From contig NZ_SMBP01000003.1 in assembly GCF_004341945.1 (NCBI RefSeq), positions 62,001 to 126,000 on the forward strand: a stretch of DNA of 64,000 nt. The letters are read 5' to 3'. Under the pieces are notes generated by a model, which was given only the letters and a program-made list of their open reading frames with translations, ran no database searches and was not told where the DNA came from. Below are positions 62,212 through 64,000 of the stretch, piece after piece (position 1 is the first letter of the stretch; every line of letters starts with the position of its first letter). Source of the stretch: Longicatena caecimuris. GTDB lineage: Bacteria > Bacillota_I > Bacilli_A > Erysipelotrichales > Erysipelotrichaceae. Made by a program: the position numbers and the translations under genes.

Positions 62212-62350
62212 AATTCTTTACTCCTTATTTTTTATTGTTGTATTTATTTTATCATAGAAAAGATAAAGTACAGAGAAGAAAGTTGTTTTTATTTTCACAT
62301 GGGCATATTTAGAGAAAAAGATGCATACATAGTGATAGGAGGATTTGACA

Positions 62351-63037
62351 ATGAAAACAATGAAGATTGAAAAGCATCTGTTTTATGCAGATGAAATAAA
62401 GCGTTTGCATACACTGCAGGCAAAAGAACAGCTGCAATATGATCAAGATGAAGATGGTATTCGGGCAACCGGGCCGCTGCATATTCAAGGTAGTTATGAA
62501 ACAATGGATGGCAATATAATACCTTTTGAAGAAGAATTGCAAATGGATGTATTAGCCCCTAGAGAAAAGTTGGGCACAATGCCTTTTGCTATGCAGGTGG
62601 AAGCATGCGAAGGGGAGATGGATGAAAATGGGATACTTGTAACAATACTCATGAACATTAGCGGCTTAAAAGAAGAAACAGAGAAACCACAGAAAAAAAT
62701 TACACCACAGCCGGTAACGACAACACCAATTCCACAACGAGAACAAACACCAGTACCGGATACATCGAACAGCAATAAGCAAGATGAAGAAGAAGCACAA
62801 GAGATTATCACTACTCCAGAAAATGAACAACCGGAAACGGAAAAAACGACGGTTGATGAATTTGAAGATTTATTTGAGGATGCCGATACCACGTATACTT
62901 CTTATCGCATGATTGTCGCAAAACCCAATGATACGTATGCCAGTATTGCCAATCGTTATGAGGTGAAAGAAGCTGATTTACGTGCATGTAATCATAATAA
63001 AACGATTGAGGCCAAAACTTTAGTAATCTTACCATGA
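62351..63037 (+). CDS. SpoVID-like spore-coat protein with C-terminal LysM domain
   Basis: A 228-residue protein. The N-terminal region (about 1-85: MKTMKIEKHLFYADEIKRLHTL, ATGPLHIQGSYETMDGNIIPFEEELQMDV) resembles the SpoVID/SipL N-terminal domain. A Pro/Thr/Glu-rich linker follows (about 105-175). The last 45 residues form a LysM fold (MIVAKPNDTYASIANRYEVKEADLRACNHNKTIEAKTLVILP). SpoVID anchors and spreads the coat around the forespore. Within the weak family similarity, this is the likely role. The ATG at 62351 is eight bases after AGGAGG. A possible sigma-E-like -10 (CATATTTA) lies near 62302. Confidence 0.75.
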   Translation: MKTMKIEKHLFYADEIKRLHTLQAKEQLQYDQDEDGIRATGPLHIQGSYETMDGNIIPFEEELQMDVLAPREKLGTMPFAMQVEACEGEMDENGILVTILMNISGLKEETEKPQKKITPQPVTTTPIPQREQTPVPDTSNSNKQDEEEAQEIITTPENEQPETEKTTVDEFEDLFEDADTTYTSYRMIVAKPNDTYASIANRYEVKEADLRACNHNKTIEAKTLVILP

Positions 63038-63063: not shown

Positions 63064-63083
63064 CTTTTAAGGGGTGCTTGAAC

Positions 63084-63251
63084 ATGATACAAATTCGTCC
63101 TGTTTCTGACCTTGAAAATGAATTCCCAAAGATTGCAACCATTATCAACAAATATTTGGTATATCTTACAAGAATAGATATGGTGAATAGGCATATGAAG
63201 TCTGAAAGAATACGCAAGACTGACAGACAACATTGTGATGAAATCAGATGA
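63084..63251 (+). pseudogene. Remnant of a Phd/YefM-type antitoxin gene
   Basis: A 55-codon frame starts MIQIRPVSDLENEFPKIATI, very like the N-terminus of type II antitoxins of the Phd/YefM group (xxIRPVSDLRNxFxxI). The sequence then degenerates (LTRIDMVNRHMKSERIRKT) and stops far short of the usual 80-90 residues. The 85 bp before the next promoter hold no recognisable toxin. A truncated copy or decayed module is the best explanation. Confidence 0.6.
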
Positions 63252-63338
63252 GATTGAAATAATGATAGCAGTCGTACAAGAAGTGCGGTACTTGAAAAAT
63301 AAATCCACAAGATTATCAGATTGATTATAAAAAAACGG

Positions 63339-63367
63339 TTGAAATGCAGAAAAGTTTTGTTTATAAT
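63339..63367 (+). promoter_or_regulatory. Promoter of the T-box transcript
   Basis: TTGAAA (63339-63344), exactly 17 bp, TATAAT (63362-63367). Confidence 0.85.
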
Positions 63368-63373
63368 AAGTGT

Positions 63374-63600
63374 ACATACGCTGAAGAGAAGGAGTACATG
63401 TTATCGGAAATACAGAGAGCTTTTGGATGGTGTAAGAAAGCATGAGGATACATGGAAGGTAGTCTTGGAGTTGATATTCTGAAAAGTGCAGTAGGAATAT
63501 TCGGGTTGGCACATCGTTATTCGTGCTGTAGAGGCATATAAAAGTATGCGAAGTAAGGTGGTACCACGTTCATCACGTCCTTATACAGGACGTTTTTTTT
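63374..63600 (+). ncRNA. T-box riboswitch leader (apparent specifier GUA, valine)
   Basis: The leader shows the T-box elements in order: GAAGAGAAGGAGTACATG (base of stem I), CAGAGAGC...GGATGGTGTAAG (stem I distal loops), a specifier side reading GAAG-GTA-G-TCTTGGAG (63455-63470), and the linker AGTAGG. The T-box AAGGTGGTACCACG (63555-63568) and the terminator ACGTCC...GGACGT plus eight T (63575-63600) complete it. Aligned with typical leaders (GAAG-XXX-A-CCUUUGAG) the specifier is GTA (63459-63461), a valine codon. The antiterminator bulge TGGT would pair with ACCA, consistent with tRNA-Val. Uncharged tRNA should allow expression of the following gene. Confidence 0.88.
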
Positions 63601-63618
63601 ATGGAGGGAGATGAGCAT

Positions 63619-64000
63619 ATGCAATTGTCAATGCCAGAAAAAGAAACCTCTCGTCTGTATCTGCGTGGTATGGAGGAAGCGGATGCCTGTGATATTTATG
63701 ACTATTATCGGCAGGCTTGCGTAACGCAATTTCTTACCTTTCCCCCACATCCTGATGTAGAACATACATTGCACATTCTTAAAGCGTTTTATTTGCCTTA
63801 TGAACGCCGAGGAGAACCGCAAGCTTGGTGCGTGCTTGATAAACAAAGGGGAAAGGTCATCGGTCATGTGTGTTTCCATGCATTGGAGGATGATACGGCA
63901 CAGCTTGCTTATGTCTTACATCCAGAGTATTGGGGTCATGGCTATATAAGGGAGGCTTTACTTCCATTGCTGGAAGTTGGCTTTACACAATTTGGCTTGC
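63619..64000 (+). CDS. GNAT-family acetyltransferase (3'-partial), T-box controlled
   Basis: The first 127 codons of a RimJ/RimL-type acetyltransferase, cut by the window end. Visible are ETSRLYLRGMEEADACDIYDYY at the start, then RGKVIGHVCFHALEDDTAQLAYVLHPEYWGHGYIREAL, which contains the acetyl-CoA loop (HPEYWGHGYIREAL, the Q/RxxGxG/A-like segment). GGAGGGAG precedes the ATG at 63619. It directly follows the T-box terminator, so its transcription depends on the charging of the cognate tRNA. The substrate is unknown. Confidence 0.85.
   Translation, partial: MQLSMPEKETSRLYLRGMEEADACDIYDYYRQACVTQFLTFPPHPDVEHTLHILKAFYLPYERRGEPQAWCVLDKQRGKVIGHVCFHALEDDTAQLAYVLHPEYWGHGYIREALLPLLEVGFTQFGL

Follow-up and report, generated by a model that had tools for sequence, protein, structure and literature searches.

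A Rim-type GNAT gene between a valine-specific T-box leader and valS in Longicatena caecimuris, and related GNAT genes in other synthetase operons

The locus at the right end of the window (the whole stretch of 64,000 nucleotides that was analysed, 62001-126000 of the source contig in an assembly of 2.95 Mb) reads from its sequence as a T-box(Val)-GNAT-valS operon with the GNAT gene as the first gene before valS. As a T-box valS operon it is a textbook case apart from its GNAT, which is unusual, conserved and recurrent, and its control by a valine-specific T-box is almost certain. The best explanation combines this operon with a genuine functional tie of the GNAT to the synthetase, and we give the two together a probability of about 0.6, the GNAT probably helping the work of the synthetase. 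Known targets of T-box control are synthetase, biosynthesis and transport genes, and an earlier note, made from the window alone, had suggested a T-box dedicated to an acetyltransferase; that suggestion is refuted because valS follows on the contig, which is the observation that the note itself had named as speaking against it.

Results

The T-box leader

In a covariance-model search with RF00230 the leader matched the full length of the model (1-219) and scored 127.9 bits, above the gathering score of 93 (E 4.9e-28), in agreement with the complete T-box leader proposed in the earlier note. Plain MFE folding did not recover Stem I of this leader, the covariance model being the better test. The consensus promoter that had been assigned to the leader was also found, a sigma-70-like site (Table 1); it is the best promoter-like site of the region, and four bases separate its end from the start of the T-box model, in a consensus scan where promoter-like sites as a class show no excess over shuffles. 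The antiterminator helix and the intrinsic terminator have bases 63575-63583 in common and are, judged by sequence only, mutually exclusive.

The specifier loop, GAA-G-GUA-G, contains the codon GUA (Val), and the TBDB rule, under which bases two to four counted from the loop end take precedence (PMC7778990), leads to the same codon. When the rule was applied to the other 20 of the 21 T-boxes in the genome, the codon fitted the downstream gene, named by eye from its protein sequence, in nearly all cases (UAC tyrS, UCA serS, AUC ileS, CUC leuS and leuA, UGG trpS, UGC cysS, GCU alaS, ACU thrS, AAC asnS, UUC pheS, AUG metG and CGC argG), the reading of one leader, L018, being ambiguous. The GGU (Gly) and UAG (stop) frames around GGUAG were ruled out by the position rule together with this genome-wide check. 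The UGGU of the T-box bulge matches the ACCA end that was found in each of two tRNA-Val(UAC) genes. The valine specifier and the fit to the tRNA-Val end, both read earlier from the leader itself, are confirmed.

Table 1. Positions of the features of the valS locus and of the hisS-linked loci (window numbering unless stated otherwise)
Feature	Position	Strand	Basis or remark
Promoter-like site TTGAAA-17-TATAAT	63339..63367	+	11/12 consensus matches; consensus match only
T-box leader (Stem I, Stem II, Stem IIA/B region, Stem III, antiterminator)	63372..63585	+	RF00230
Specifier GUA (Val) in Stem I specifier loop	63459..63461	+	Model alignment; after GAA-G, before purine
Antiterminator helix, UAAGG/CCUUA outer pairing and inner stem	63554..63583	+	Model alignment
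UGGU of T-box bulge	63559..63562	+	Complementary to ACCA of tRNA-Val
Intrinsic terminator ACGTCCT-TATAC-AGGACGT-T7, 7-pair stem and T run	63575..63600	+	Hairpin at 63575-63593; overlaps antiterminator 3' arm
Shine-Dalgarno GGAGGG of GNAT gene	63603..63608	+	Sequence
Rim-type GNAT gene, 5' part (P0001, 188 aa full)	63619..64000	+	Continues beyond window, contig piece L022 1620-2186
valS (P0002, 874 aa)	L022 2170-4794		Contig right of window; overlaps last 17 bases of GNAT gene
T-box-GNAT-hisS loci	L277, L279, L281, L284, L293, L294, L298, L299-L322		Families f11, f15 and f22; aspS after hisS in some

The GNAT gene and valS

The likely start of the GNAT gene is the one behind the Shine-Dalgarno sequence and not the one at 63601, and the gene is completed on the contig past the end of the window. 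Its product, P0001, carries a GNAT domain of PF13302 (Acetyltransf_3; E 3e-26, 93.1 bits against a cut-off of 25.4), a family with 13 matches in the genome, in line with the RimJ/RimL-type assignment made in the earlier note. Extension of the contig to the right revealed valS, its product scoring far over the cut-offs of TIGR00422 and NF004349 for ValRS, so that the other possibility raised at the time, a GNAT placed as first gene before valS, is the one that was found. From the T-box to valS the scan gives only weak promoter- or terminator-like matches, all of them inside reading frames, and 3' of valS a stem with a T-run was seen by eye that is absent from the consensus-scan list. The frames of GNAT and valS are probably translationally coupled through their overlap, and uncharged tRNA-Val would induce both genes.

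Upstream of the operon (62345-63037) lies a gene for a LysM protein with a weak SpoVID-like N-terminus, below the Pfam cut-offs; in Bacillus subtilis, too, spoVID is near valS. The stretch from this gene to the T-box promoter (63078-63310) holds a short frame of 57 aa for which no Pfam match was found, and is possibly a decayed gene.

Distribution of the GNAT gene beside valS

When 96 genomes of the family were searched with P0001, the best homologues were all found to abut or overlap valS, together with a few weaker ones down to 27% identity (alignment A1), and the remaining weaker relatives, outside these operons, occur in unrelated contexts with no T-box upstream. All of the 20 further loci tested, which represent at least 19 genera of the family, have the GNAT behind a Val T-box and before valS, the codon in the leader being mostly GUA and in some cases GUC. 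The same gene order is present in Dielma fastidiosa, Merdibacter massiliensis, Traorella massiliensis and Amedibacillus dolichus, and the ValRS of the window genome is closest to that of a Longicatena sp. assembly (89%). Linkage to valS persists at GNAT identities of 27-55%, while ValRS stays at 70-93%, the GNAT evolving much faster than the synthetase (38% vs 92% at L031, for example).

In a tree of 132 sampled ValRS sequences the GNAT accompanies 32, the T-box lies directly before valS in 76 and the layout is another one in 24, mostly with a different gene in the slot behind the T-box. Many lineages can therefore dispense with the GNAT. Its state changes about eight times on this tree, at least six of the changes falling on well-supported branches.

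Several other arrangements were observed around valS. In the sister family the place between T-box and valS is taken by a DMP19-like protein that is membrane-anchored and about 210-250 aa long (L055-L063, L067, L069, L075-L078, L082, L182, L189), and at L102 the slot is occupied by an HD-domain protein. The order is reversed at L116 (G174:C1:791796-794929), in a genome, G174, that reads TGA as Trp; here valS comes first and overlaps with its 3' end the GNAT gene.

GNAT genes behind other T-boxes

A second GNAT lineage in T-box-GNAT-valS order was found in families f11 and f15 and falls outside the main valS-linked clade in the tree. A single clade for all valS-linked GNATs is rejected by the AU test (p 0.025, with the group defined post hoc from the tree), which disfavours one origin for all of them; a larger GNAT tree gave no resolution of the deep branching among the valS-linked GNATs of f1 and f9.

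A class-wide search revealed a third lineage, in T-box-GNAT-hisS operons of families f11, f15 and f22 (Table 1). This order was found in 24 of the 24 best matches to a profile built from these hisS-linked GNATs (alignment A2; T-box core motif and hisS match), and RF00230 supports the 16 hisS-operon leaders tested with it, most of them under the gathering score. In some of these operons aspS is visible after hisS, and the specifier at L293 and L298 is GAC (Asp), which fits a hisS-aspS operon, the other hisS leaders being less clear. The seven hisS-linked GNATs placed in the tree form one supported clade (96/90), and some f11 genomes (G146, G159 and G192) contain both a valS-linked and a hisS-linked GNAT.

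The window genome itself also has a T-box(Thr, ACU)-GNAT-thrS arrangement with a GNAT of 168 aa (L015 / L249, G000:C30:10921-14126). As a conserved pair it was rejected, thrS adjoining at 0 of the 17 homologous family loci examined, and the thrS-linked GNAT therefore looks local to this lineage.

Three further kinds of neighbourhood were noted. At L248 (G000:C37) an Asn T-box and asnS are followed directly downstream by a GNAT of another Pfam group, PF13420; at L289 and L290 a GNAT lies just upstream of the hisS T-box and not behind it; and at L278, L282 and L297 related GNATs are situated between a YmdB-like phosphoesterase gene and a miaB-like gene, both named by eye.

Judged from gene order, the GNAT is a recurrent companion of T-box-controlled synthetases and not a chance neighbour, an enrichment behind T-boxes that is argued from recurrence and not from a statistic. 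The earlier note had held that a valS gene in the same transcript would make the GNAT a passenger. The valS gene is there, but "passenger" is too weak a word, because the GNAT keeps its slot across many genera and separate lineages occupy equivalent slots.

Discussion

Fold and candidate substrate of the GNAT

The AlphaFold model of P0001 (pLDDT 96.7) has the GNAT fold, and the nearest solved folds are RimJ (3igr, Foldseek E 2.5e-16), a GNAT of B. anthracis, a GNAT of T. thermophilus, SpeG and YdaF, with RimL also near. Profile matches were obtained to RimL and MccE (E 7e-20 and 1e-15), and the best NCBIfam equivalogs, RimJ and RimL, give 44.8 bits against a cut-off of 190 and 37.5 against 184. 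When P0001 was compared with RimL and MccE at the catalytic residues Ser141 and Glu160 (RimL numbering), Ser141 was found to be mostly kept, while the position of the catalytic glutamate is Thr160 in P0001 and variable in the family, so that the catalytic pair is not complete in P0001. The fold does not pick the substrate, since structures of the RimJ and SpeG types equal or surpass RimL and MccE as matches.

Many aminoacyl-adenylates are inactivated through acetylation of their alpha-amine by RimL and MccE, which thereby detoxify processed microcin C, an inhibitor of AspRS (PMC3817062, PMC4964394). Owing to this activity and to the placement of the GNAT behind T-boxes that sense failing charging, our preferred guess, and a tentative one, is that the GNAT may N-acetylate the alpha-amine of aminoacyl-nucleotides as RimL and MccE do, which, given the Thr at the Glu160 position, is not meant as a claim of membership in the RimL/MccE group.

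In the mechanism that we propose, uncharged tRNA-Val would base-pair at two sites, the GUA specifier and, through the free ACCA end, the UGGU bulge, and this binding would stabilise the antiterminator and let transcription pass the terminator into GNAT and valS. The GNAT would then N-acetylate aminoacyl-nucleotides, either inhibitory adenylate mimics or stray adenylates, and synthetase and protection would be induced together when charging fails. In a broader version, the Rim-type GNATs that follow T-boxes of synthetase operons (valS at least twice, hisS-aspS and thrS) would make up a protection module that recurs in Bacilli, responds to tRNA when charging fails and N-acetylates aminoacyl-nucleotide inhibitors or stray aminoacyl-adenylates, with the T-box sensing the attack on the synthetase; this version is speculative and in our judgement unlikely.

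The GNAT could instead acetylate proteins in the manner of RimI, RimJ or RimL, with ValRS, a ribosomal protein or some other protein of translation as its target, and owe its place in synthetase operons to a role in tuning translation when charging falls. The nearest folds and sequences, among them RimJ (3igr), a ribosomal-protein-alanine acetyltransferase homologue (2z0z) and RimL, are consistent with such a role, and so are the top NCBIfam matches RimJ and RimL, though these are far below their cut-offs; an invariant ribosomal substrate, however, fits poorly with a GNAT that diverges so much more than the ValRS beside it, and the gene is absent in many relatives. We consider this alternative somewhat unlikely.

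More doubtful is acetylation of a free amino acid, an analogue or a small xenobiotic, for instance a non-protein valine analogue, with the enzyme being induced as such compounds lower the charging of tRNA-Val. The fast evolution of the GNAT would suit a variable substrate, and SpeG as well as aminoglycoside or bleomycin acetyltransferases are found among the Rim-type matches, but the same kind of GNAT goes with hisS and with valS, which indicates no single amino acid.

It is decidedly unlikely that GNAT and ValRS are functionally unconnected and that the GNAT gene sits in a slot between terminator and valS that tolerates insertions, where it profits from strong inducible transcription. The unrelated genes found in the same slot (the DMP19-like protein of the sister family and the HD-domain protein at L102) and the commonness of PF13302 genes in the genome agree with this, whereas the occupation of such slots by GNATs of separate lineages, the long-term retention and the overlap with the synthetase frame argue against it. 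A toxin of the TacT/AtaT kind acetylating charged tRNA is highly improbable, for although the superfamily is the same and those toxins act on charged tRNA (PMC7595197, PMC9177977), P0001 belongs to the RimJ/RimL-type PF13302 group, no antitoxin gene adjoins the GNAT, whose neighbours are the T-box leader (5') and valS (3'), and the PADLOC models gave no match for it.

With acetylation of aminoacyl-nucleotides kept as the preferred guess, T-boxes would, if it is true, also be sensors for synthetase-directed antibiotics. The conserved GNAT between leader and synthetase, which separate lineages have with valS and with hisS, points to a function that is linked to tRNA charging and has gone unrecognised; the T-box-GNAT-synthetase operons are ready gene pairs for testing it.

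Comparison with known systems

T-box control of valS has long been known (PMC2494555), and no report of a T-box-GNAT-synthetase operon was found in the literature searched, in which coverage of subscription papers was incomplete. Compared with the Firmicutes T-box riboswitches (RF00230) that precede valS and further synthetase genes, the present locus has the same tested leader features, a valine specifier, the tRNA match and valS in the transcript, but here a GNAT lies between leader and valS, overlapping valS, in an order that is conserved in many relatives. With RimL and MccE the likeness consists of the GNAT fold, the profile similarity and the Ser141 position, while P0001 differs in the Thr at the position of the catalytic Glu160 and in its location in a T-box synthetase operon. 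The RimJ and YdaF-type GNATs (3igr, 1nsl, 3fbu) are the nearest solved relatives by sequence and fold, yet P0001 is only about 25% identical to them and far under the RimJ equivalog cut-off. A GNAT joined to a related synthetase is found in the IleRS with an N-acetyltransferase domain (NCBIfam NF040702), where P0001 matches the GNAT part (E 8e-8, model 284-420); there the GNAT is fused with IleRS, whereas here it is a separate gene before valS.
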